Of a DNA stretch of 64,000 nucleotides, positions 28,356 through 41,487 are shown one piece after another. Location of the stretch: contig CANFXV010000008.1 in NCBI GenBank assembly GCA_947451115.1, positions 1-64,000 on the forward strand. Direction: 5' to 3'. Each line of letters starts with the position of its first letter. The first letter of the stretch is position 1. Source of the DNA: Bacteroidota bacterium (GTDB taxonomy: Bacteria; Bacteroidota; Bacteroidia; Chitinophagales; Chitinophagaceae). Made by a program: the position numbers and the translations under genes. The notes below the pieces were generated by a model. The model was not told the origin of the DNA. It saw only the letters and a program-made list of their open reading frames with translations, and ran no database searches.

Positions 28356-29801
28356 TTATGCTACGATGGCTTCTGCTTCAATTTCAACCAAGTATTCATC
28401 GCCTATTAAATTGGCTTGAACCATGGTGTTCACTGGTTGAATGTTAGCAAAACGTTGTCCATGCGCTCTGGCAATAGCTTCCCATTGAGTAATGTCTTTG
28501 ACAAATACCCTAGTACGCACTACATCTTCTAATTGGCCGCCCAAGGATTGAATGGCACCTTCGATTTTATCAAAAATAAAATGGGCTTGTGCGGCAGGAT
28601 CATTTCCTCCAATCAAACTTGCACCATGTGTGGCGGTAGTGCCAGAAACTAAAATTCGATTGCCTTTGCGCACGGCACGACTATAGCCAGCCATGGTTTC
28701 CCAGCTAGTGCCTGACAATGCCTTAGTTTTTCCAGAGGCATCTTTGATGGTAGGATAAGGGGAAGCAATTTCTTTAACATGATGACTTAAATCGCCACTT
28801 GCAGTTAAATAGGGTGGCTTACGGTATTCATCTCCACAATCCCCTGGAATACTATTTCCTTGCGCTAATATTTTTTTGATGGCCTCGCGTTCGGTTTCTA
28901 AAAGGGTTAGTGTAAGTATTTTTTTATTTTCATCCATATGCGCTGAAACACCCAATCTTGCACCCACAATCACGCCGCCCACTGCTGGTAAATCTTTAAT
29001 GTAAGCACTGGCAATGGTAGCGATGGTTACTTGGTGTTTTTTTGCAATTTGATCTAATGTTTCTAATAATGTTTGGTACCAATCCCAGCCACCTGCTGCA
29101 TCAATGTATCTTTTGTATTTCATCTGCGACCAGGTCAAGGACTCAGTCATGGCTGGTGCAGGTTGACGAAGCCATTTTTCGCTAAAAAATCCGCCGGCCA
29201 CGGTACCGAAGGCCAATATTTTTATATTATGTGCTAAACAAGTTGCGCTCATTTTACCAGCAGCACGTTGATCTAGCAAGGAATAACATATTTGATTACT
29301 GACTACAGGGATGCCTGATTGAATTACCATATTTAAATGTGCTTCATCAAAATTGGTTAGTCCAATATTGGCGATCAATCCTTCTTCTTTTAATTTTTGT
29401 AAGCCAAACAAACAATCCAACCAACTTGGGTCTGCATAATTCCATGCATGAAATTGTAGTAACTGAATTTGCTCTACTTGTAATTTTTTTAAGGAAGATT
29501 TTACGGCCTCTTGAATTTGTGCAGGATGAATAGCTCCTGGACTTGGCACCCATTTGGTTAATAGTTGAATGTCCTTAAGTCCGTAGGTTTTTTTAAACAC
29601 TCCTGAAATTTCTTCTGCAGATCCATAATGGTCGGCCATATCAAAACTTGTAAACCCTTGCTCATAATAAGCATGCAAGGCCTTGGCGGACTTTATTGGG
29701 TCTAATTTTTGGTTGTTTCTTTCCAAGTCTGCCACCTGCCATAAGCCTATGAGTACTTTAGAAATGCTTAAAGAGTCGCTTAGTTTTGTCGTAGTATTCA
29801 T
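28356..29801 (-). CDS. Aldo/keto reductase fused to a RidA-like domain
   Basis: A 481-residue fusion. Residues 1 to about 335 are an aldo/keto reductase with the tetrad Asp54, Tyr59, Lys83 and His118 (SFDMADHYGSAEE, LLTKW, LLQFHAWNY). After a linker (about 335-365), residues about 365-481 form a RidA/YjgF domain (AVRKGNRILVSGTT, VVRTRVFVKD, LVEIEAEAI). The arginine that RidA deaminases use (Arg105 in E. coli) is replaced by Asn458 in the PVNTMVQANL segment, so this domain is unlikely to be a classical imine deaminase. It is last in a minus-strand operon after an APC permease (8-base gap). Confidence 0.88.
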   Translation of the reverse strand: MNTTTKLSDSLSISKVLIGLWQVADLERNNQKLDPIKSAKALHAYYEQGFTSFDMADHYGSAEEISGVFKKTYGLKDIQLLTKWVPSPGAIHPAQIQEAVKSSLKKLQVEQIQLLQFHAWNYADPSWLDCLFGLQKLKEEGLIANIGLTNFDEAHLNMVIQSGIPVVSNQICYSLLDQRAAGKMSATCLAHNIKILAFGTVAGGFFSEKWLRQPAPAMTESLTWSQMKYKRYIDAAGGWDWYQTLLETLDQIAKKHQVTIATIASAYIKDLPAVGGVIVGARLGVSAHMDENKKILTLTLLETEREAIKKILAQGNSIPGDCGDEYRKPPYLTASGDLSHHVKEIASPYPTIKDASGKTKALSGTSWETMAGYSRAVRKGNRILVSGTTATHGASLIGGNDPAAQAHFIFDKIEGAIQSLGGQLEDVVRTRVFVKDITQWEAIARAHGQRFANIQPVNTMVQANLIGDEYLVEIEAEAIVA

Positions 29802-29809
29802 TGTTCTAT

Positions 29810-31288
29810 TTATTCAGAAGGTAAATTTTTAAAATATTGCGCATCAAAGCGACCTGATTTTTTTAATTGATTCCAATAGATGGCAAAAATAGCAGTTGCT
29901 AAAATCATTACCACTGCAAATACATAAGTGGCATGAAAATACCAAGCAGACTTGGAAGCGCTTAAATCATTGACCACATTAATAAGGAGCAAAGCACTAA
30001 GGCTAATTAAACCCAAAATAGCAATTAGCTTTTGCACCATTTTATTTTTGATAACGGTAATTTGACTTGCCAATAAAGAATTATTTCGATGGATCAATAG
30101 TACAGCCATACAAATCAATATAAAATTAACCAACATGGCAATGACCATAATGTCGATACCTAAAAATATATCACTAGCAAAATGGCTTCCTAGTATACCA
30201 AGGCTAGAAACTACACCGCTAAAGAAGATGGCCCAATATGGAGTTTTATAGCTAGGGTGTATATTGCTTAAAAATGAAGGAAATAATTGATCCTTGGACC
30301 AGGCAAATAGTAGTCTAGATACCGACAAGATCATTGAAGGCAAATCTTTTAATAAGGCAATACAGGCGCCCAACATGATCAATATCGACCAAAAAGGAGG
30401 CAATACATAATTCAATAAGGTGGTGGCTGAAATATCTTTTTTATTGGCTAAGTCTTGTACAAAATTCCAGGGCGCAATTTTATATACACTGAAAGTAAAT
30501 AACAAATAAAATAAACTTACGCTTACAATAGTGATGATAATGGCTCTGGGCAATGATTTACTTGGATTTTTTGCTTCACCACCTGCTTGGGCAATTGAAT
30601 CAAAGCCAATAAAGCTTGCAAATAGAATGCCGCTGGCAGAAATAAATTGTTGCCAGTTGAACTTTCCTTGCAGATGGGTAATCACTATTCCATCTTTATT
30701 CAATACGCCTTGAATAAAATCTTCTTCGCTGTAAACTAATCCAGCCACGATGACAATGCTGGCCAAAATAAAAGTAATGATGACCAGTCCAATAATGGTC
30801 AATTGATAGGTTTTGATTCCAAAAATATTGATGCCAATAAACAACCATAACAATCCTAAGGGTAAGCATAATTTGGTAGCGCTGTTTTCAAAAAAATGAA
30901 CAAGATTTATCCAATTCATGGCAGCGCAAACATCTCTAAAGAATGGCACCACCATATAAGCTACTACGCCTATCACAATGGATAAGCCAAACCACTGTGC
31001 AAAGCTGGCAACAAATCCCCAGTAAGGATGGATGGACCTACTTGCATAGACATAACTTCCGCCAGCCCTAGGCATGGCACTGGCTAAGATAGCATAGGTA
31101 AGTGCCGCAAATAATGCCGGAATAGAGGCAACAAAAAATGCGGGCAGCAAATAAGGCCCAATACCAGGTACATTTTTTTGCAACATGAAAGGAACAATAT
31201 AAATAGATGCCCCAATCATAGAGGAGATGCCTGTAGCCACTAAACCTGCTACAGTAATATTTCTTGAAAGGGTAGTTGTTGGTTCCAT
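29810..31288 (-). CDS. APC superfamily amino-acid permease
   Basis: A 492-residue integral-membrane transporter with about 12 hydrophobic helices. The helix-1 unwinding motif TGISSMIGASIYIVPF (about 18-33) and the PRAGGSYVYASRSI segment (about 74-87) are APC hallmarks. It should import amino acids or related amines with protons. It lies between an FG-GAP lipoprotein and the AKR-RidA fusion, with gaps of 6 and 8 bases, so the three are one operon, divergent from a GntP/RidA/PLP-enzyme operon. Substrate is likely an amino acid; which one is not readable. Confidence 0.9.
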   Translation of the reverse strand: MEPTTTLSRNITVAGLVATGISSMIGASIYIVPFMLQKNVPGIGPYLLPAFFVASIPALFAALTYAILASAMPRAGGSYVYASRSIHPYWGFVASFAQWFGLSIVIGVVAYMVVPFFRDVCAAMNWINLVHFFENSATKLCLPLGLLWLFIGINIFGIKTYQLTIIGLVIITFILASIVIVAGLVYSEEDFIQGVLNKDGIVITHLQGKFNWQQFISASGILFASFIGFDSIAQAGGEAKNPSKSLPRAIIITIVSVSLFYLLFTFSVYKIAPWNFVQDLANKKDISATTLLNYVLPPFWSILIMLGACIALLKDLPSMILSVSRLLFAWSKDQLFPSFLSNIHPSYKTPYWAIFFSGVVSSLGILGSHFASDIFLGIDIMVIAMLVNFILICMAVLLIHRNNSLLASQITVIKNKMVQKLIAILGLISLSALLLINVVNDLSASKSAWYFHATYVFAVVMILATAIFAIYWNQLKKSGRFDAQYFKNLPSE

Positions 31289-31294
31289 AGTTTA

Positions 31295-32599
31295 TTATTT
31301 CAGCCTTTTAAGTTTATTGTTTTCCCATACCCATTGTAATAGTGGATCGCCATTTATATTTAAACTTTCGTAATAAAGCCGATCATTTTTATTGTAAAAC
31401 TTCATCCAAGTGGGCCCTTTTGAAACAGTTAAATCCATGCCTGCTTCTATGAATGCGCCAGTTTTATCTAGCCACTTTGTGCCATCAAATTTTAAAATCT
31501 GAATTGCCCAATTTTTATAAAAATCAGTAAGTACTTTGTTAACTAGCCTTCCGCCAGTTCTGTTAATTGCGATTTCTAATTTTCCGTCTCCGTCTAAATC
31601 TGCAAAATCAAAATCCAAGACAACGCCAAAATAGCTATTTACCGGAAGATAGCTTACATTTTCTTCATTATATTTATAATTGCTATTGCCCCAATATATT
31701 CTCGTGGCTCCTTCATACTCGGTAGCTATTTTAAAACTGGTATCTTTAACACTAAACTCATGACCACCAAGTATTAAATCCATATATCCATCTTTATTAA
31801 TATCATAAAGCTCACTTGTAAATAAAGAGCCAAGACTAGCTAAATTTATAATGTTGGTTGTTATAGTAAAATTTCCTTTCCCATCATTGATTAAAAAGTA
31901 TGATTTATCGTCTGCCAATGCAAAAATATCTAAATCGCCATCTTTATCAATGTCGCCTGAACAAACACTGTGAAAAACGCCAATGTTATTATTGAATTCT
32001 ACTTTTTTGTATTTTCCACTTGGTATCGATAATATAAGCGCATTAGCTTCCCCTAGAAAAGGACTTTGATCCATACCAAAGCCGGCTAAAAATAGATCAG
32101 GTCTAGCATCATTATTAAAATCGCCAACAATGGATTTCCTGGCTAAATACATTTTTGGGATTTGAGCAGTGTCTATAGTATTTTCATCATAAACATATTT
32201 TCCATTTACATTTAAGTAAACTTGCCCGGCCACTTTTTCTTTTCCTTGAAAAGATAGATTAGTGACAGGATGCACATAAAAATCTTCTAAACCATCTCCA
32301 TTAAAATCTAAATAAGAAGTGGCAGATGCTGAAATACCTTTATTGATTATTTCAGAGGCGGATTGTCCAAGTGAATTTTTAGCATTTACAACGATGTTTA
32401 AAATATCCTCATTTATAGGTGTATTTTGAGTTTCGCAGGATGGATTTTTTAAATTTTTATAATCATAAGTGGTTGGTGCTGTTGTATTGATGGGGGTAGT
32501 AGCTGGTGGAATAGTTGCAGGCACTGTTTCCTGAGGCATGTCCTTTGATTTAGAACAGGCATATAAGATGACTAGAATAACTACATATACATTCTTCAT
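31295..32599 (-). CDS. FG-GAP/VCBS-repeat lipoprotein
   Basis: A lipoprotein of about 434 residues (signal ending ILYACSKSK, cysteine near 15). After a Thr/Pro-rich spacer (about 22-45) come at least four FG-GAP/VCBS repeats with calcium-binding DxDxDG-type loops: FNGDGLEDF, DIDKDGDLDIF, DINKDGYMDLI and DLDGDGKLEI. These build a seven-bladed propeller seen in surface adhesins and binding proteins. Start chosen at ATG 32599; an in-frame upstream extension to 32659 would put extra residues before the signal peptide. It heads the minus-strand operon that includes an APC permease, which is an unusual partner. Confidence 0.83.
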   Translation of the reverse strand: MKNVYVVILVILYACSKSKDMPQETVPATIPPATTPINTTAPTTYDYKNLKNPSCETQNTPINEDILNIVVNAKNSLGQSASEIINKGISASATSYLDFNGDGLEDFYVHPVTNLSFQGKEKVAGQVYLNVNGKYVYDENTIDTAQIPKMYLARKSIVGDFNNDARPDLFLAGFGMDQSPFLGEANALILSIPSGKYKKVEFNNNIGVFHSVCSGDIDKDGDLDIFALADDKSYFLINDGKGNFTITTNIINLASLGSLFTSELYDINKDGYMDLILGGHEFSVKDTSFKIATEYEGATRIYWGNSNYKYNEENVSYLPVNSYFGVVLDFDFADLDGDGKLEIAINRTGGRLVNKVLTDFYKNWAIQILKFDGTKWLDKTGAFIEAGMDLTVSKGPTWMKFYNKNDRLYYESLNINGDPLLQWVWENNKLKRLK

Positions 32600-32640
32600 T
32601 TTAATGAACATTTCTTGAGATAAATATAAGTTTTCTTTTT

Positions 32641-32648
32641 TATCTTTA
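32641..32648 (+). promoter_or_regulatory. Possible promoter of the GntP operon
   Basis: TATCTTTA differs by one base from TAnnTTTG and lies 20 bases before the ATG at 32669, within the 69-base divergent spacer. Confidence 0.3.
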
Positions 32649-32668
32649 GAAGTAGCCATACCTGAATT

Positions 32669-33982
32669 ATGACCCTTGTTTTACTTTTGCTTGCTGTTTT
32701 ATCATTAGTGCTGCTAATCACTGTGGTTAAGCTGCATCCATTCATTTCATTTTTGATTGTTTGTATAGGTACAGGCTTAATAAGAGGCATGGGAGTTACC
32801 CCATTAATGAGCGCGATCCAAAAAGGGATGGGCGATGTGGTAGGTTCACTTATGATTATTCTTTGTTTGGGGGCCATGTTAGGAAAATTGGTGGCAGATA
32901 GTGGTGCAGCCAACAAAATTGCAGGGGGCTTAATTCATTTATTTGGCACTAAGTACATTCAATGGGCCTTGGTACTCACTGCTTTTATTGTGGGTATTCC
33001 TTTGTTTTATGGCGTTGGTTTTGTTTTATTGGTTCCATTAATTATTACAGTAGCTGCTCGATATAAATTACCAGCCGTTTATTTAGGCCTACCTACTTTG
33101 GCAGCTTTATCCGTCACCCATGGTTTTCTACCTCCACATCCATCACCAGTAGCATTGGCTCAACAGTTCAATGCCAATATGGGCATGACCTTGTTTTATG
33201 GCATCCTCATTGCCATTCCCACTATTATTATAGCAGGTCCTCTTTTTTCTGTGACACTTAAAAAATACACACAAAAACCTATTGCTATTTTTTCTACCAA
33301 TGAAATAGCGGAAGAAAATTTACCTGGCATGTTTCCGAGTTTAATGGCCGCCTTCTTGCCCGTCTTGTTAATTGGATTAGATACCATTGTGAATTCATCC
33401 AATGTTCAAAAAAATAGTTGGACTAGTTTTATCCATATGATTGGAGATCCTTCTGTAGCCATGCTTATTTCATTATTGGTTTCCTTGTATACCTTGGGTA
33501 TCAGACAGGGCAAAAGCATTCAAAAAATAATGGGCCCCATTGGAGATTCGGTTAAAGAAGTGTCTACTATTTTACTCATCATTGCGGGTGCGGGTGCATT
33601 GAAACAAGTTTTGTTGGATACAGGCATTAGTGCAGAATTAATTCAACCCCTCACTAAATTATCTTTACATCCTTTATTATTAGCATGGGGCATCGCTGCC
33701 ATATTAAGGGTGAGTATTGGATCTTCTACTGTTGCAGGTTTAACCACTGCAGGTATTGTAGCGCCGCTTATTGTTATTAGTGGTGTCAATCCTTGTTTGA
33801 TGGTACTCGCTACAGGCGCTGGCAGTTTGTTTTTCTCTCATGTCAATGATCCAGGTTTCTGGATGTTTAAAGAATATTTTAATTTGACGGTAAAACAAAC
33901 CATTAAAACTTGGAGCATCATGGAAAGCCTGGTTTCTGTTTTAGGATTGATAGGCGTTTTTATTTTAAATTATTTCATTTAA
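32669..33982 (+). CDS. GntP-family permease (gluconate/D-serine type)
   Basis: A 437-residue integral-membrane protein of the GntP family. Diagnostic segments are FLIVCIGTGLIRGMG near the N-terminus, HGFLPPHPSPVALAQQFNANMG (about 151-172), and the C-terminal ATGAGSLFFSHVNDPGFWMF. The family includes gluconate permeases and the D-serine transporter DsdX. Because it is followed by RidA (14-base gap), a D-serine-dehydratase-like PLP enzyme and a dipeptidase, a D-amino-acid role is more likely here than gluconate uptake; no gluconate kinase gene is nearby. Confidence 0.9.
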   Translation: MTLVLLLLAVLSLVLLITVVKLHPFISFLIVCIGTGLIRGMGVTPLMSAIQKGMGDVVGSLMIILCLGAMLGKLVADSGAANKIAGGLIHLFGTKYIQWALVLTAFIVGIPLFYGVGFVLLVPLIITVAARYKLPAVYLGLPTLAALSVTHGFLPPHPSPVALAQQFNANMGMTLFYGILIAIPTIIIAGPLFSVTLKKYTQKPIAIFSTNEIAEENLPGMFPSLMAAFLPVLLIGLDTIVNSSNVQKNSWTSFIHMIGDPSVAMLISLLVSLYTLGIRQGKSIQKIMGPIGDSVKEVSTILLIIAGAGALKQVLLDTGISAELIQPLTKLSLHPLLLAWGIAAILRVSIGSSTVAGLTTAGIVAPLIVISGVNPCLMVLATGAGSLFFSHVNDPGFWMFKEYFNLTVKQTIKTWSIMESLVSVLGLIGVFILNYFI

Positions 33983-33996
33983 TAAAATTCAAAAAA

Positions 33997-34470
33997 ATGA
34001 GCACACCCGAAGAAAATTTTGCAAAATTAGGTTTAAGCCTACCTCCTGCACCCAAACCATTGGGTGTGTACAAGCCTTTATTGGTAGATGGCAATCATTG
34101 TTTTGTTTCAGGGCATGGTCCAGTTCAAGACAATGGTAGTTTAATCATTGGAAGAGTGGGTGCCGGTTTAAGTATGGAGGAAGGTAAGTTGGCTGCCAGA
34201 CAAGTAGGACTAGCTATAGTAGCCACTATCAAAGCTAATTTAGGCTCACTAAATAAAATTAAAAGAGTAGTCAAAGTATTGGGTATGGTCAGTTGTACCA
34301 ATGATTTTGAAAAACATCCCTACATCATTAATGGGTGCAGTGAATTGTTTGCCTCCATTTGGGGCCCTGATCTTGGCGTGGGTGTAAGAAGCGCAGTAGG
34401 CATGGGTTCACTTCCGGGAAATATTCCTGTAGAAATTGAGGCCATGTTTGAATTGAACGAAAACATTTAA
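33997..34470 (+). CDS. RidA family protein with catalytic arginine
   Basis: A 157-residue RidA/YjgF-family protein. Arg131 in GVGVRSAVGMGSLPG aligns with E. coli RidA Arg105, followed by the conserved PVEIEAM strand. RidA enzymes hydrolyse reactive enamine/imine intermediates such as 2-aminoacrylate, which PLP-dependent serine and threonine dehydratases release. Start at ATG 33997 matches the family N-terminus (MSTPEENFAKLGL); the frame is open upstream but overlaps the GntP gene. It is 10 bases ahead of a PLP enzyme, the expected source of its substrate. Confidence 0.9.
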   Translation: MSTPEENFAKLGLSLPPAPKPLGVYKPLLVDGNHCFVSGHGPVQDNGSLIIGRVGAGLSMEEGKLAARQVGLAIVATIKANLGSLNKIKRVVKVLGMVSCTNDFEKHPYIINGCSELFASIWGPDLGVGVRSAVGMGSLPGNIPVEIEAMFELNENI

Positions 34471-34480
34471 TTTTTTAAAG

Positions 34481-35584
34481 ATGCATTGGTACGAAATAAA
34501 AAATATAGCACAAATTGATTCTCCCTCCTTGGTATTGTATTCGGATAGGATCAAAGAAAACATCAATGCATTGATTAAAATGGTGGATGGACGTGTGGAT
34601 CAGTTAAGGCCACATGTGAAAACAAATAAAATTGCCGAGGTTTGCCAGTTGATGATGGATAAAGGCATCCAAAACTATAAATGCGCCACTATTGCCGAAG
34701 CAGAAATGCTAGGCCGGCTCAAAATACCAGATGTTTTAATTGCACATCAATTGATGGGGCCAAAGTTGGATCGATTGATTACACTTATTAAAACTTTCCC
34801 TTCAACAAAGTTTTCTTGTCTCATTGATCATCTTGCAACAGCTCAATCCATCTCAAAACTTTTTGCAGCAGAGGGGATGAGTTTGCAAGTATACATGGAT
34901 GTAAATATTGGTATGAACCGTTCAGGGATTATTACAGAAAAAGCCATAGAACTATTTAATGCCGTTGCATTGCTACCCAATATAAAAATCATTGGCTTGC
35001 ATTGTTATGATGGGCATATTCGTGAAACTAATATAGGTCAAAGAAATATTTTGGCAGATGAAGCTTTTGAAAATGCAGACAGGCTGAGAAAAAAAATAGA
35101 AGCTTTCTCTAATGAAAACTTAGCATTGATTGTTGCAGGTTCTTGTTCTTTTTCTTCGCATATAAAAAGAAAGGACCTACAAGTTAGCCCAGGCACTTTT
35201 GTTTTTTGGGATTGGGGCTATAAAAACTTATTTCCCGATTTGCCTTTTGAATTTGCTGCCTTGGTAGTGACCAGAATTATTTCAATTATTGATGCACATA
35301 CAATTTGTACGGACTTAGGTCATAAAGCAGTGGCTGCTGAAAATCCAATTCCAAGGGTTCATTTTTTAAATGCCCCTCAAGCCGAACCCAACGGACAAAG
35401 CGAAGAGCACTTGGTAGTGAAAGTAGCGGATAGTTCTTTATATCAGGTGGGTGATGTTTGGTATGGAGTGCCTGTGCATATTTGTCCTACAGTGGCTTTG
35501 TATGACACTGCCTTAGTCATAGAAAAGAATGAAGTGGTGGATCAATGGGAGGTTATTGCACGCAGAAGAAAAATTACGATTTAA
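34481..35584 (+). CDS. D-serine dehydratase/D-threonine aldolase-type PLP enzyme
   Basis: A 367-residue fold-type III PLP enzyme of the DSD1/D-threonine-aldolase family. Lys47 in RPHVKTNK is the PLP lysine; the barrel continues through GLHCYDGHIRE and ends in a beta domain. The C-terminal metal site is His333-x-Cys335 (PVHICPTV). In this family H-x-C is known from eukaryotic D-serine dehydratase, while some D-threonine aldolases have H-x-D, so dehydratase-type chemistry is favoured. Substrates would be D-serine or D-threonine-like amino acids. RidA lies 10 bases upstream and a dipeptidase 9 bases downstream. Confidence 0.87.
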   Translation: MHWYEIKNIAQIDSPSLVLYSDRIKENINALIKMVDGRVDQLRPHVKTNKIAEVCQLMMDKGIQNYKCATIAEAEMLGRLKIPDVLIAHQLMGPKLDRLITLIKTFPSTKFSCLIDHLATAQSISKLFAAEGMSLQVYMDVNIGMNRSGIITEKAIELFNAVALLPNIKIIGLHCYDGHIRETNIGQRNILADEAFENADRLRKKIEAFSNENLALIVAGSCSFSSHIKRKDLQVSPGTFVFWDWGYKNLFPDLPFEFAALVVTRIISIIDAHTICTDLGHKAVAAENPIPRVHFLNAPQAEPNGQSEEHLVVKVADSSLYQVGDVWYGVPVHICPTVALYDTALVIEKNEVVDQWEVIARRRKITI

Positions 35585-35593
35585 TTTTATTTC

Positions 35594-36673
35594 ATGTTCA
35601 TAGTAGATGCTCATTTAGATTTAGCCATGAATGCGGTGGAATGGAAACGTGACTTACAAAAAAAAGTTGACGAAATTAATGCGTTGGAAAAAGGGATGAA
35701 GGACAAGCCCGACAGAGGCAATGCTACAGTGGCTTTGCCTGAATTAAGACAAGGTAATATTGGCTTGGTAGTTGCCACACAAATTGCACGCGTAGAAACG
35801 CCTGGCTCAGGCATCAAAGGTTGGGCCAGCCCTCAGGCAGCTTGGAATCAAACTCAATTGCAATTAGAATGGTATAAATCCATGGAAGCAGCAGGCGAAA
35901 TGGTTCAAATCAAAAACAACCAAGATTTAGCAGCACATCTTTTATTATGGAACAATGAATTGCCTAATCATAATAAACCAGTGGGTTATATACTTAGTTT
36001 AGAAGGAGCCGATTCTATGGTTAATTTAGATTACTTGCATATTGCTCATACCTATGGATTGCGCGCATTGGGACCAGCGCATTATGGACCTGGACGTTAT
36101 GCCAATGGTACCAATGCTACTGGTAAATTAAACGCGCAAGGAAAAGCTTTGTTAAAAGAAATGGATGCATTAAATATGATTTTAGATGCCACCCATTTAT
36201 GTGATGATGCATTTTGGGAGGCCATTGAAATTTACCAAGGAACCATTTGGGCCAGTCACCACAATTGCAGGTCCTTGGTCAACCACAATCGACAACTGAG
36301 CGATGAGATGATCAAAATATTGATCCAAAAAAATGCAGTCATTGGTGCTGCTTTAGATGCTTGGATGATGGTGCCTGATTGGGAAAGAGGACTTTCCACA
36401 CCTTTGGGTATGCAATGTAATTTAGAAAAGATGATTGACCATATGGACCATATTTGTCAAATAGCGGGCAATACCAATCACATTGGTATGGGTACCGATT
36501 TGGATGGGGCCTTTGGTAAAGAGCAATGTCCTTATGATATAAATTCTGTGGCCGATTTGCAAATTGTTCCTAACTTACTGATGAAAAGAGGCTATACTGC
36601 CGATGATTGTGAAAAAATTATGCATGGGAATTGGTTGCGCCTTTTAAGCAATACATGGAATAGCACTGATTAA
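35594..36673 (+). CDS. Membrane dipeptidase, peptidase family M19
   Basis: A 359-residue binuclear-zinc dipeptidase of the renal-dipeptidase family. Metal ligands by comparison are His7 and Asp9 (DAHLDLA), Glu137 (SLEGAD), His201 (DATHL) and His222 (ASHHN); the GMGTDLDGAFG motif is near 300. Unlike most relatives it shows no signal peptide, so it is probably cytoplasmic. M19 enzymes accept dipeptides with a D-residue at the C-terminal side, which fits the neighbouring D-amino-acid enzyme. It follows the PLP enzyme by 9 bases. Confidence 0.9.
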   Translation: MFIVDAHLDLAMNAVEWKRDLQKKVDEINALEKGMKDKPDRGNATVALPELRQGNIGLVVATQIARVETPGSGIKGWASPQAAWNQTQLQLEWYKSMEAAGEMVQIKNNQDLAAHLLLWNNELPNHNKPVGYILSLEGADSMVNLDYLHIAHTYGLRALGPAHYGPGRYANGTNATGKLNAQGKALLKEMDALNMILDATHLCDDAFWEAIEIYQGTIWASHHNCRSLVNHNRQLSDEMIKILIQKNAVIGAALDAWMMVPDWERGLSTPLGMQCNLEKMIDHMDHICQIAGNTNHIGMGTDLDGAFGKEQCPYDINSVADLQIVPNLLMKRGYTADDCEKIMHGNWLRLLSNTWNSTD

Positions 36674-36703: not shown

Positions 36704-37549
36704 ATGAAACCATTACTATTTTTAATAGTTGCTGCACTTTCTGTTGTAGGGGTGAATGCGCAAAAATTGTTTACTTATCCAATAGGCGTTCAAACCTATA
36801 CTTTTAGAGATCATTTCCCAAAGGGGGTTGAAAAAACATTGGATGAAATTAAAAGCTTGGGCTTTACCGAAATTGAAGGCAATGCCCCTAAGGGAATGAC
36901 CGAATCAGCGTATAAAATACTTTGTGATGCCAAAGGCTTAAGCATTCCATCTACGGGTGCCGAATACGATGAACTATTGAAAGACCCAATGGCAGTAGTT
37001 GCCAAGGCTAAAGCTTTGGGCACTAAATTTGTGATGTGTGCTTGGATACCTCATCAAAAAAGTAATTTTAATTTAGAGAATGCTAAAAATGCAGTTCAAG
37101 TTTTTAACAATGCTGGAAAAATACTCAGAGCAAATGGGTTGACTTTATGTTACCATGAGCATGGGTTTGAATTTCAACCCTATGAAGATGGAACACTTTT
37201 GGATTACATTATTAAATCGACCAATCCTAAATATGTTTCTTTTGAGATGGATGTGTTATGGGTAATGCATGGGGGCGGAGCAACCATGCCCGTGACTTTG
37301 TTAAATAAATATCCAGGTCGTTTCAAGTTGATGCACTTGAAAGATTTAAAAAAAGGAGTGAAAGGTGATTTCTCTGGCGGTACGCCTGCTGAAAATGATG
37401 TGCCTGTTGGGGCGGGTCAGGGCAATTGGAAAGAAATTATTAAGTTGGCAAAAAAATATGGAGTGGTACATTGCTTTATCGAAGATGAAAGCAATCACGA
37501 AATGGAAAACATTCCTTTAAGCTTGGCCTATTTAAAAAGTTTAAAATAA
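36704..37549 (+). CDS. Exported sugar-phosphate isomerase/epimerase-like TIM barrel
   Basis: A 281-residue protein with a signal peptide (cleavage near GVNAQ). The rest is a xylose-isomerase-like TIM barrel: IGVQTYTFRDHFPKGVEK, LCYHEHGFEFQ, FEMDVLWVMHGG, FKLMHLKD and FIEDES carry the usual His/Glu/Asp metal ligands. Bacteroidota encode many exported proteins of this type of unknown substrate, often in glycan loci. It is the last gene of the plus-strand operon, 30 bases after the dipeptidase, and shares a bidirectional terminator with araA. Confidence 0.85.
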   Translation: MKPLLFLIVAALSVVGVNAQKLFTYPIGVQTYTFRDHFPKGVEKTLDEIKSLGFTEIEGNAPKGMTESAYKILCDAKGLSIPSTGAEYDELLKDPMAVVAKAKALGTKFVMCAWIPHQKSNFNLENAKNAVQVFNNAGKILRANGLTLCYHEHGFEFQPYEDGTLLDYIIKSTNPKYVSFEMDVLWVMHGGGATMPVTLLNKYPGRFKLMHLKDLKKGVKGDFSGGTPAENDVPVGAGQGNWKEIIKLAKKYGVVHCFIEDESNHEMENIPLSLAYLKSLK

Positions 37550-37566: not shown

Positions 37567-37599
37567 AAAATAAGCCACTACCCACTAGTGGCTTATTTT
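37567..37599. terminator. Bidirectional terminator containing the araA stop
   Basis: AAAATAAGCCACTA, a 5-base loop CCCAC, and TAGTGGCTTATTTT form a perfect 14-pair stem with A/T flanks for both strands. The araA stop codon (37585-37587) lies in the loop and stem, so the last codons of araA form the left arm on its own strand. Confidence 0.9.
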
Positions 37600-39093
37600 A
37601 TAATAGACATCACTCCATTTTAATTCATTTTTAAAGGAGCTTAATTCGGTATTCTTTCCAATCAAAGTAAATTCTATTCCAGCTATTTCTGCAAAATCTT
37701 CTAAATGATCCTTAGTTAAGTTTTGGCTATAACAAGTATGATGAGCACCACCTGCTAAAATCCAAGCAGCACATCCTGTATGCATATTAGGGTATGGCTT
37801 CCACAATACTCTTGCAACAGGCAATAAAGGCAAGGCTTGTATAGGTTTAACCGCCATGACCTCATTCACCAATAATCTAAAGCGATTACCCATATCTACA
37901 ATAGAGGCATTTAATGCAGCGCCAGGCGTGGTATTAAAAACTAATCTTACTGGATCTGCTTTGCCACCAATACCCAATGGATGTATTTCGCAACTTGGTT
38001 TTCCTTCTGCAATACTTGGACATATCTCCAACATATGTGCGCCTAAAACCATTCTATTATCGGGTTGAAAATGATAAGTGTAATCTTCCATGAATGAATT
38101 GCCTCCTTCTAAACCAGCGCCCATTACTTTCATGGCTCTCACTAAAGCTGCGGTCTTCCAATCTCCTTCGCCCGCAAAACCATAACCCTTGGCCATTAAT
38201 CTTTGCGCAGCAATACCTGGTAGTTGTGCAAGGCCATTCAAGTCTTCAAAAGTATCTGTGAATCCTTTGAAATTTCCTTGCACTAAAAACTTTTCAATGC
38301 CTAATTCAATTTTAGCAGCTGCTCTGAGTGAAGCATGTGCGGCTCCGTTTTTTAATAAGCTGGTTTGCAGCTGATATTCTTTTTCATAAATGGCCACTAA
38401 CTCGTCAATTTCTTTTTCTGAAACCTGATCCACCACTGCGACTAAATCGGCAATGCCATAAGTATTCACACTGTAACCAAATTTAATTTCTGCTTCTACT
38501 TTGTCTCCTTCTGTAACTGCCACATAGCGCATATTGTCTCCAAAGCGAACAAACTTAGCGCCCTGCCAATCATGCCAAGCTGCTGCGGCTCTAGCCCAGC
38601 CATTAATTTTTTCTAAAGATTCTTCATCCTGCCAATGACCTACTACTACTTTTCTATGAATATTCATTCTTGCAGTAATAAATCCAAACTCTCTATCCCC
38701 ATGGGCACTCTGGTTTAAATTCATAAAATCCATATCAATGGTCTCCCAAGGAATGTCTCTGTTAAACTGAGTATGAAAATGCAATAGTGGTTTGCTTAAT
38801 ATTTTAAGGCCATTGATCCACATTTTGGCAGGTGAAAAAGTATGCATCCAGCAAACCACCCCGATACAATTTTTATCATTGTTGGCTTCTTGCATGGCTT
38901 TCAATACTTCTTCGCTAGATTTTACCACCGGCTTAAATACCACATTTACAGGAATGGTTTTAGAAGCAGTCAAGGAACCTGCAATGGTATTAGAATGTTC
39001 TGCCACTTTTTTTAAAGTTGCTTCGCCGTATAAATCTTGGCTACCTGTAATAAACCAAACGTCTAATTTTTTTAAATCTGGAATCATACTCAT
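37585..39093 (-). CDS. araA: L-arabinose isomerase
   Basis: A 502-residue enzyme converting L-arabinose to L-ribulose. The opening [16 protein letters not shown] is the family signature. Metal-binding and catalytic segments are [16 protein letters not shown] (first glutamate), [10 protein letters not shown] (second glutamate), [10 protein letters not shown] and GGAHHTCYS (histidines). Length is normal. It follows araD by 6 bases and araB beyond that, the last gene of the arabinose operon. ATG 39087 (two residues shorter) is a possible start. Its stop codon is embedded in a bidirectional terminator. Confidence 0.97.
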
Positions 39094-39099
39094 TTTATT

Positions 39100-39801
39100 T
39101 TATTGACCGTAATAACTATTCGGGCCATGTTTTCTTTGAAAATGTTTTTCTTTTAAGGAATTTTTCATAGGGCTTGCTTCCTTATTAATTTGTTCAGTAA
39201 GTAAAGCAGCTTTTGCGATGAATTCTAACACAGCGCTGTTGTGCACTGCTTTTTTTGCATCCTTGCCCCAGGTAAACGGCGCATGGTTGCCTACTAAAAT
39301 CATTTCTACTTCTTGATAATCTAAATTTCTTTCTTTAAAACAATCTATAATTTGATGCCCTGTTTCAATTTCATAATCCCCTTTAATTTTTTCATCTTTC
39401 ATAGGAACAGCGCAAGGAATTGCGGCAATGGTATAATCTGCATGGGTTGTGCCATAAACAGGAATGTCTCTCAAGCTTTGCGCCCAAGCAGTGGCATAGG
39501 TAGAATGCGTATGCACAATGCTTCCAATATGCGCCCAATGTTTGTACAATACGGCATGAGAATGCGTGTCCGAAGAGGGCTTTAATTTGCCTTCTACTAC
39601 TTGCCCATCAAAATCAACGACCACCATATCTTCGACAGCTAAATTTTCATAGGGTACACCACTAGGTTTAATAGCGAATACTTGATGGGCTCTGTCCACC
39701 ACACTTACATTGCCAAACGTGAATAAAACCAAATCTAATTTTGGTAATTCTAAATTGGCCAAGTAACATTCTTCCTTTATTTTCTGAAATTTTGAGCTCA
39801 T
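39100..39801 (-). CDS. araD: L-ribulose-5-phosphate 4-epimerase
   Basis: A 233-residue class-II-aldolase-like epimerase converting L-ribulose 5-phosphate to D-xylulose 5-phosphate. The N-terminal FTFGNVSVVDRAHQVFAIKPSGVPYENL is the family signature. Zinc ligands are the histidines of IVHTHSTYATAWAQ and the later GNHAPFTWGKDA. The C-terminal FQRKHGPNSYYGQ is the usual AraD tail. It is located between araB (12-base gap) and araA (6-base gap). Confidence 0.96.
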   Translation of the reverse strand: MSSKFQKIKEECYLANLELPKLDLVLFTFGNVSVVDRAHQVFAIKPSGVPYENLAVEDMVVVDFDGQVVEGKLKPSSDTHSHAVLYKHWAHIGSIVHTHSTYATAWAQSLRDIPVYGTTHADYTIAAIPCAVPMKDEKIKGDYEIETGHQIIDCFKERNLDYQEVEMILVGNHAPFTWGKDAKKAVHNSAVLEFIAKAALLTEQINKEASPMKNSLKEKHFQRKHGPNSYYGQ

Positions 39802-39813
39802 GGTTTTGGCTTT

Positions 39814-41487
39814 TTAATTTGTCTTTTGTTCTATGAATTTTCCAAATTCAATATACTTTAAGTAGCGTTCTTTATAATAATTAACCCTTTCTTTATTTGG
39901 CTGATAAGTAATTTCAAATCCCTGTCCCATCGCCTTCATAGCATCTTCAACCTTGTCGTATACACCAGCTGCAGTGGCCGCAAACATAGCAGCTCCCAAG
40001 GCACAGGTTTGTTCACTTTTATGAATTTTTATAGGCATGTCCATCACATCTGACATCATTTGCATAATAAATGGAGATTTTTTGGCCACACCACCAAGTC
40101 CGATAATTCCTTTAATGGGAATACCTTCTTCTATAAATCTATCTACTATGGCCTTGGCCCCAAAACAAGTGGCTTCGACTAAACTTTTATATAATATAGG
40201 GGCACTCGTGGCCAAAGAAATACCTTCTATGGCTCCTTTTAATAATTGATTGGCATCGGGGGTTCTTCTTCCATTCATCCAATCGAGTGCAATAGGATCA
40301 TTGGAATTTAATGGAAGCGCATTAGCAGTTTCATTTAACTGTACTAATATTTTTTCTTCAAGGGCATCCACCTCCGTTTCATCCATAGACCCATTGCCAA
40401 TTTTTGTATTTAATACAATATTTTGCAATGGCCAGGCCAAAATATTTTTAAACCAAGCATAAATATCTCCAAATCCTGATTGCCCTGCTTCTAAACCCAC
40501 CATGCCAGGAAGCACAGAGCCATTGACTTGGCCACAAATGCCCTTGATTAATTTACCTTCTATTTCCTTGGTTGGGGCAACTAAAATATCACAGGTAGAA
40601 GTGCCCATTACCTTGCTTAAATAATAGGGTTCTATTTGTCCACCCACGGCACCCATATGTGCATCAAAAGCACCCACCCCAATTGTAGTAGTGACTGGAA
40701 TACCTAGTTCCGCAGCCCATTGAGCTGTAATTGTACCTACGGAAACAGCGGCACTAAAGGTTTCTTTTGATAGCGAACTGACCACTTTTTCTAGTTTGGG
40801 ATCTAATTCGGAAAAAAATGTACTAGGAGGGTAGCCACCAAATTTTTCGGCCCATAAAGCCTTATGCCCTGCGCTGCAAACACCTCTTTTTATTTTACTG
40901 GCCTGCTTTTCTCCTGTTAATAAATAGGGAATCCAATCACAATGTTCTACCCAGGTATAAATATCTTCCTCCACCGTTTTGTCAATTCTTAAAATATGCA
41001 AAAGTTTGGCCCAATACCATTCACTCGAATAAATGCCTCCAACAAATTCTAAATAGTTGGTGGTGTATTTTTTTGCATGTTCATTTATTTCTTTGGCTTC
41101 GGCTGCTGCCGTATGATCCTTCCATAACACAAACATCGCATTAGGATTTTCTGCATGCTTTGCGGTTAATGACAAGGGGATTCCTTCTTGGTTGACAGCG
41201 ATAGGAGTTGAGCCTGTGGTATCAATGGATAATCCAACAATATTTTCTACAATAGCTTTATCTAAATTTTTTATACAGGCTTTAATGGTAATGCTTAAGC
41301 CATCTATGTAATCTTGTGGATGTTGTCTATATTGATTGATAGCAGGATTGCAGTACAAGCCCTTGGACCATCTTTCATAATAATGCACAGCAGATTGAAC
41401 AATTGATCCATTGGAAGCATCCACCAAAATGGACCTGACAGAATCTGTTCCGTAGTCAACTCCTATTACATAACTGGTTTTAGACAT
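39814..41487 (-). CDS. araB: L-ribulokinase
   Basis: A 557-residue FGGY-family sugar kinase that phosphorylates L-ribulose. The N-terminal ATP-loop VGVDYGTDSVRSILVD and the HYYERW segment are AraB-specific; later motifs are GVGAFDAHMGAVGGQ, KVMGTSTCDI and GLEAGQSGFGDIYAWF, with the C-terminal GLGGVAKKSPFIMQ adenosine motif. It starts the araBDA gene order and is preceded by an 80-base gap holding a hairpin and a near-consensus promoter. Confidence 0.96.
   Translation of the reverse strand: MSKTSYVIGVDYGTDSVRSILVDASNGSIVQSAVHYYERWSKGLYCNPAINQYRQHPQDYIDGLSITIKACIKNLDKAIVENIVGLSIDTTGSTPIAVNQEGIPLSLTAKHAENPNAMFVLWKDHTAAAEAKEINEHAKKYTTNYLEFVGGIYSSEWYWAKLLHILRIDKTVEEDIYTWVEHCDWIPYLLTGEKQASKIKRGVCSAGHKALWAEKFGGYPPSTFFSELDPKLEKVVSSLSKETFSAAVSVGTITAQWAAELGIPVTTTIGVGAFDAHMGAVGGQIEPYYLSKVMGTSTCDILVAPTKEIEGKLIKGICGQVNGSVLPGMVGLEAGQSGFGDIYAWFKNILAWPLQNIVLNTKIGNGSMDETEVDALEEKILVQLNETANALPLNSNDPIALDWMNGRRTPDANQLLKGAIEGISLATSAPILYKSLVEATCFGAKAIVDRFIEEGIPIKGIIGLGGVAKKSPFIMQMMSDVMDMPIKIHKSEQTCALGAAMFAATAAGVYDKVEDAMKAMGQGFEITYQPNKERVNYYKERYLKYIEFGKFIEQKTN

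Follow-up and report, generated by a model that had tools for sequence, protein, structure and literature searches.

A conserved GntP-Rid1-lyase-M19 gene quartet of Bacteroidota and a candidate pathway for C1-oxidised N-acetylglucosamine

We analysed a window of 64,000 nucleotides (positions 1 to 64,000 of contig CANFXV010000008.1, assembly GCA_947451115.1) from a Bacteroidota bacterium of the family Chitinophagaceae. On its plus strand lie four genes, for a GntP-family permease, a Rid1 protein, a fold-type III lyase dependent on pyridoxal phosphate (PLP) and an M19 amide hydrolase, and this quartet is a real conserved module across Bacteroidota. Going by the sequences, the balance tips slightly in favour of the quartet serving the catabolism of 2-acetamido-2-deoxy-D-gluconate (GlcNAc1A), the C1-oxidised form of N-acetylglucosamine (GlcNAc), with the M19 protein as the deacetylase; here we infer the substrate, the deacetylase role and the direction of flow. 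The four genes are separated by only 14, 10 and 9 bases.

32669-33982, plus strand: GntP-family permease (PF02447, 494 bits); proposed (N-acetyl-)glucosaminate importer
33997-34470, plus strand: predicted Rid1 imine hydrolase with Arg131 (PF14588, 48.3 bits, cut-off 35)
34481-35584, plus strand: fold-type III PLP lyase of the DSD1 type (PF01168, 60 bits, and PF14031, 59 bits); proposed D-glucosaminate dehydratase
35594-36673, plus strand: M19 amide hydrolase, family name dipeptidase (PF01244, 159.6 bits, cut-off 26); proposed GlcNAc1A deacetylase

The window belongs to a 2.12 Mb assembly of 59 contigs that is 89% complete. An earlier note on this DNA had read the locus as a system for D-amino-acid and dipeptide utilisation. 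Its coordinates, strands and gene families were all verified, while two of its subfamily calls, those for Rid and for the permease, were amended.

Conservation was scored by tblastn at loci around the lyase gene, one locus per genome (below, G denotes genomes, L fetched loci, and f and g families and genera). The first set held 66 loci: that of Chitinophaga niastensis, 29 from the 37 lyase-bearing genomes of the same genus as the window genome, 35 loci from outside the genus (all phylum-search matches of at least 280 bits there) and G195; L116-L119, with weak lyase matches, were left out of this count. A gene was counted if a homologue on the lyase strand started within 6 kb of the lyase; contig ends truncate some of the loci. 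The quartet was complete in 27 of the 66 loci. Partial modules consisted of Rid, lyase and M19 (13 loci), lyase and M19 (5), GntP, Rid and lyase (2) or Rid and lyase (7), and the lyase stood alone in 12. The second set comprised all 20 further M19-bearing genomes of family f25, probably Flavobacteriaceae, each from a different genus. Here 15 loci had the quartet, Rid was missing from one and GntP from three, and in L218 M19 was found without a nearby lyase. The order GntP-RidA-DSD1-M19, which the earlier note had proposed to follow across genomes, is thus conserved in relatives from many genera. Lyase matches include records of Sediminibacterium, Chitinophagaceae and Chitinophaga niastensis, and the annotation of a Parabacteroides distasonis plasmid lists a gluconate:H+ symporter, DUF4833, RidA, a D-threonine aldolase (D-TA) family enzyme and a membrane dipeptidase, the DUF4833 protein (L161 7952-8473) lying between GntP and RidA.

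The four proteins and the proposed pathway

By PF01244 and its metal ligands, the M19 protein belongs to the M19 dipeptidase family; a protein search with it returned at least 8000 candidates, all at E <= 1e-30. Residues H7, D9, E137, H201, H222, R233 and D302 were conserved among 51 aligned sequences, and we take them to correspond to the metal ligands, the carboxylate-binding arginine and the catalytic aspartate of DPEP1. These residues cannot tell a dipeptide from GlcNAc1A as substrate, because a carboxylate beside the scissile amide is common to both. The more distant genomes G174 and G709 have a second M19 that lies apart from the lyase. In the window, M19 is followed after 30 bp by a gene (36704-37549) whose product is a TIM-barrel protein (PF01261) that begins like a signal peptide; its distant homologues (28-36%) sit close to M19 in L085, L087, L091 and L115, where they share its strand, and in G107 and G012, where they are on the opposite one, and a functional link to M19 is possible.

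The lyase carries PF01168, PF14031 and a predicted H-x-C zinc site (H333-x-C335), the features of the DSD1 type, and K47 is presumably the PLP lysine, judging by its motif. All 34 aligned rows of the enzyme's Bacteroidota clade retain the metal site, and among 45 aligned lyase rows BhcC alone shows H-x-D. The closest solved relatives by score are D-threonine aldolase or BhcC (95 to 82 bits), all four with H-x-D, and solved D-threonine aldolases likewise carry this motif. H-x-C is associated with dehydration and H-x-D with aldol cleavage. A D-threonine aldolase identity was ruled out, since the lyase has H-x-C where the aldolases have H-x-D, and the BhcC equivalog model gave 108.5 bits against a cut-off of 690. 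The lyase of L216 (7355-8445) runs across two overlapping frames, reflecting either inactivity there or a sequencing error, and the lyase of G081 was likewise matched in two pieces. A distant lyase relative annotated as alanine racemase occurs on a Klebsiella plasmid (L162 2895-13664) with RidA, hydantoinase/oxoprolinase and amino acid ATP-binding cassette (ABC) transporter genes.

The permease had been described as of GntP/DsdX type, of which the GntP half stands and the DsdX half finds no support. It scored 507.5 bits on the GntP gluconate:H+ symporter subfamily model TIGR00791 (cut-off 292.75). On the gluconate transporter model PRK14984 it reached 474.5 bits, about twice the 241.4 bits obtained with the DsdX equivalog NF007395 (cut-off 618), both values lying under the equivalog cut-offs. 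The Parabacteroides distasonis homologue behaves alike (461 versus 228). Upstream of GntP, L154 (5021-5701) and L206 (2262-2861, with one gene between) have a gene with a 3-keto-disaccharide hydrolase domain.

The Rid protein does have the catalytic Arg131 ascribed to it in the earlier note, but it is not RidA proper: its PF01042 score is only 27.3 bits, right at the cut-off, and PF14588 and the conserved arginine fit a predicted Rid1 protein better. Arg131 reaches at least 98% conservation in an alignment of 57 sequences, counting the window and some genomes present twice. Solved relatives of the protein include PA0814 and ACIAD3089, both classed as Rid1 in PMC5619798. Rid1 proteins bearing this arginine are described as active on imines and 2-aminoacrylate (PMC5619798, PMC4433059), and the conserved-arginine rule for Rid activity is given in PMC4433059.

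Together the four proteins could form the cytoplasmic end of an oxidised amino-sugar pathway. The GntP permease would import the sugar acid, GlcNAc1A, and M19 would deacetylate it. The product, D-glucosaminate, is a 3-hydroxy-D-amino acid, from which the Zn/PLP lyase would eliminate water. Hydrolysis of the enamine/imine by Rid1 would yield ammonia and 2-keto-3-deoxygluconate (KDG). From KDG, pyruvate and glyceraldehyde-3-phosphate would be formed by KDG kinase and 2-keto-3-deoxy-6-phosphogluconate (KDPG) aldolase, which are encoded elsewhere in the genome.

Comparable steps are described for the ong pathway, which serves oxidative chitin utilisation in Pseudoalteromonas prydzensis. According to PMC9537276, OngB removes the acetyl group of GlcNAc1A, OngC forms KDG and ammonia from glucosaminate, KdgK phosphorylates KDG, the RidA protein OngD is essential with a role unknown, and the route is likened to D-amino acid catabolism. 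The homology survey in that source finds the pathway complete in Gammaproteobacteria and a single Betaproteobacterium only, and the word Bacteroidetes occurs 0 times in its text. A structure of OngB is reported in PMC12017989. Two Aeromonas strains are said to be without close OngB or OngC, other deacetylases or deaminases possibly serving instead (PMC11653859). We found the ong gene set, in the same order, in the unannotated P. piscicida record L160. No Bacteroidota version of the pathway was found in literature searches, most subscription papers being outside their scope.

Sugar-related neighbours and the choice of substrate

Genes of sugar metabolism accompany the module in several lineages. 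In genus g64 of family f25, a PfkB kinase resembling KdgK and an aldolase for KDPG and 2-keto-4-hydroxyglutarate (KHG) are encoded between Rid and the lyase in five of nine loci (L106, L109-L112), all five with SusC/SusD upstream, and all nine have DeoR-family and glycoside hydrolase family 20 (GH20) genes beside M19, as assigned by clustering with scanned members. The best NCBIfam matches, both below cut-off, were a KHG/KDPG aldolase/sugar kinase fusion for the kinase and a bifunctional KHG/KDPG aldolase for the aldolase. In L215 a KDPG aldolase gene lies 6 bp past M19 on the same strand, and a nearby convergent gene encodes a 626-aa fusion of a shikimate-kinase-like domain, which by eye we take to be a gluconokinase, with 6-phosphogluconate dehydrogenase (6PGD). 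The same convergent kinase-6PGD fusion occurs in L210, where M81 and YdjC genes follow M19 with a PIG-L gene beyond. A GH20 gene immediately precedes Rid in L216, and in Chitinophaga niastensis (L044) a convergent one is the next gene past the lyase. An MGH1-like glycoside hydrolase gene follows M19 in 5/5 loci of genus g73 (family f23), with one intervening gene in L089.

In the window genome, a KdgK-like (PfkB) kinase, scoring below the NCBIfam cut-offs, and a KDPG aldolase (Eda) are encoded beside UxaC/UxuA (L188) and not in the quartet; KDG is therefore probably usable by this organism. The genome also carries three GH20 genes. A single SusC/SusD pair shared by two lineages was ruled out: their SusD proteins are about 26% identical, and among SusC matches between the two lineages none passed the filters. 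The best SusD match of the window genome has 29% identity.

Co-occurrence was counted in 120 same-genus genomes (G001-G120, genus membership taken from the listed rows; M19 threshold E <= 1e-40). M19 was found in 25 of them, every one also having the lyase, and in none of the 83 lyase-free genomes. KdgK and Eda were both present in 28/30 module genomes, 3/7 genomes with a divergent lyase and 46/83 genomes without a lyase (Fisher p = 1e-4 for module versus lyase-free genomes), although these figures, like those for M19 and the lyase, ignore relatedness and assembly completeness.

This last limit counts against the GlcNAc1A pathway, and so do several further observations. Six of the 30 module-type genomes have no detected M19, one of them (G075) showing an 18% piece at a contig end. 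Lineages found to have sugar genes adjoining the module are the minority, the annotation of neighbours was selective, and at many quartet loci none of the sugar genes looked for turned up. The GH20 link in g64 may be plain synteny, and SusC/SusD neighbours do not distinguish glycan from peptide uptake. The lytic polysaccharide monooxygenase (LPMO) family LPMO_10 gave 0 matches in the 89% complete window genome and was present in 1/395 phylum genomes; co-occurrence of LPMO with the module thus has no support, and other organisms or another oxidase would have to supply the oxidised sugar. Finally, there was no meaningful alignment of M19 with OngB (P. piscicida OngB-like protein), of Rid with OngD or of GntP with OngIT, and the lyase, with 21% identity to OngC, groups apart from the OngC clade in a tree whose long branches make the placement unsure.

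The main rival is the use of D-serine or dipeptides. As the earlier note proposed, D-serine or D-dipeptides would be taken up, M19 would free the D-residue, the Zn/PLP enzyme would dehydrate D-serine or D-threonine, and Rid would clear 2-aminoacrylate. The chemistry fits each of these steps, with hydrolysis of an amide, PLP-dependent elimination from a 3-hydroxy D-amino acid and imine hydrolysis by Rid, and the H-x-C motif of the lyase is of the dehydratase type. What is more, most of the M19 homologues with a structure in the PDB are named dipeptidases, which also speaks against a deacetylase; DsdX itself belongs to the GntP family; and OngC accepts D-serine and D-threonine (PMC9537276). A gene resembling S66 LD-carboxypeptidase, a peptidase related to D-amino acids, adjoins the module in 16/66 loci, all same-genus, and an L-serine dehydratase gene lies upstream in G107 and G086 and as a fragment in G029; both again weigh against GlcNAc1A. 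However, the S66 gene looks like chromosomal synteny, because it stands beside methionyl-tRNA synthetase in most of the 16 loci and persists where M19 is missing (L131, L134). The L-serine dehydratase found no support as a conserved partner: seven further module genomes (G026, G034, G041, G073, G085, G096, G118) have its full-length gene on a different contig, and no homologue was found in the window genome. In L036 and L042, too, the module is preceded by an open reading frame of 525 aa, the length of the L-serine dehydratase. On the other hand, the permease scores and the KDG kinase, KDPG aldolase, kinase-6PGD and GH20 neighbours, for which D-serine use has no role, point to a 2-(acyl)amino-2-deoxy aldonate, making D-serine the less likely substrate. 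We consider this route unlikely.

The same neighbours would suit any 2-amino-2-deoxy aldonate, such as galactosaminate, or glucosaminate bearing another N-acyl group, for example an amino acid, which M19 would cleave like a peptide; M19 enzymes normally cut amino-acyl bonds. Some loci (L084, L088, L082, L152) combine M19 and the lyase in a second context, with genes resembling 3-hydroxyacyl-CoA dehydrogenase (3HCDH), ceramidase-like genes (beside 3HCDH in L084 and L088) or an aminotransferase gene (L152), which suggests that the enzyme pair serves further substrates there. No annotated neighbour, however, indicates a specific other sugar or acyl group, and a different aldonate appears quite improbable. 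A chance neighbourhood of unrelated amino-acid genes has next to no probability: it holds for the APC permease and the AKR-RidA fusion described below, which are indeed unrelated neighbours, but is refuted for the quartet by its recurrence across many genera.

Genes flanking the module

Three genes run divergently from the quartet.

31295-32659, minus strand: FG-GAP lipoprotein (PF13517); neighbour, outside the module
29810-31288, minus strand: APC amino acid permease (PF13520); neighbour, outside the module
28356-29801, minus strand: fusion of an aldo-keto reductase (AKR) with RidA (PF00248 and PF01042); neighbour, outside the module

The earlier note had enlisted this operon in the pathway, but none of its genes travels with the quartet in relatives. 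The AKR-RidA fusion was found in 13/200 genomes, its own included (E <= 1e-60). Five of the 12 relatives also have the lyase (G018, G029, G084, G117, G150), in all five on another contig, even in G117 with only 6 contigs. It adjoins an APC homologue in all 11 loci (L140-L150) that were fetched from the 12 relatives, and the two genes are a conserved pair of their own and not part of the quartet; both were ruled out as members of the system. No homologue of the FG-GAP lipoprotein was listed at the other loci compared. The lipoprotein probably begins at a Met ahead of the lipobox, 48 or 60 bases downstream of the start given above. Farther out, a GH43 family gene (PF04616, 27314-28354) adjoins the AKR-RidA fusion, and 37585-41487 on the minus strand holds what we take, by eye, to be AraA-, AraD- and AraB-like genes.

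Comparison with known systems

The window lyase shares PF01168, PF14031 and the H-x-C metal site with the zinc D-serine dehydratases of the DSD1 type, but it scores only 50.5 bits to the solved 3anu, and the genomic context differs. The dsd system of D-serine utilisation likewise places a GntP-family permease, DsdX, beside a PLP enzyme of the dehydratase type, whereas the window permease is far below the DsdX cut-off and the window lyase, as we take it, is of the DSD1 and not the DsdA type. The logic of an amide hydrolase, a PLP lyase and a Rid protein in a sugar locus recurs in Alphaproteobacteria, with M81 in place of M19 and, in L197, a lyase 24% identical to that of the window. There a D-TA PLP enzyme, an M81 'metallopeptidase', RidA, RpiR and sugar ABC genes lie together (L197 3514-7038, L196 3466-7056), an arrangement seen in Rhizobium acidisoli and Qingshengfaniella, with GH20 in the latter (L197). 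These loci are possibly another amino-sugar-acid pathway; we know of no characterisation of them.

Orthology of the quartet to the ong enzymes was looked for in the alignments and the lyase tree and not found, which leaves a likeness of function. A route for C1-oxidised GlcNAc across Bacteroidota, assembled independently of ong and with the M19 clade as GlcNAc1A de-N-acetylase, has in our view a little less than an even chance. If it exists, Bacteroidota without LPMOs could live on oxidised chitin monomers freed by others, and cross-feeding between LPMO users and LPMO-free Bacteroidota would be predicted. A phylum with a central part in polysaccharide breakdown would then own a catabolism of oxidised chitin whose components are for the most part non-homologous, and renaming would be due for many proteins called 'membrane dipeptidase' or D-TA family enzyme. 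The route would also tie a Rid1 protein to a definite substrate; according to the 2015 Rid survey (PMC4433059), what Rid1-3 act on in vivo was not known.

Set beside ong, the quartet likewise clusters an amide hydrolase, a fold-type III PLP lyase, a Rid protein and an inner-membrane permease. In ong the amide hydrolase OngB is of the D-aminoacylase type, the Rid protein OngD belongs to PF01042 and the permease OngIT to the SSS family, whereas the window has M19, Rid1 (PF14588), that is, a Rid protein of another subfamily, and GntP. The ong cluster includes KdgK, aldolase and GH20 genes; in the Bacteroidota system such genes lie at the module in certain relatives, or else at other places in the genome. 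Further, ong has an LPMO, none being detected in the window genome. The quartet would work like ong, yet not be a member of it by homology, and is best read as its putative Bacteroidota analogue, in which M19, GntP and Rid1 would replace OngB, OngIT and OngD.

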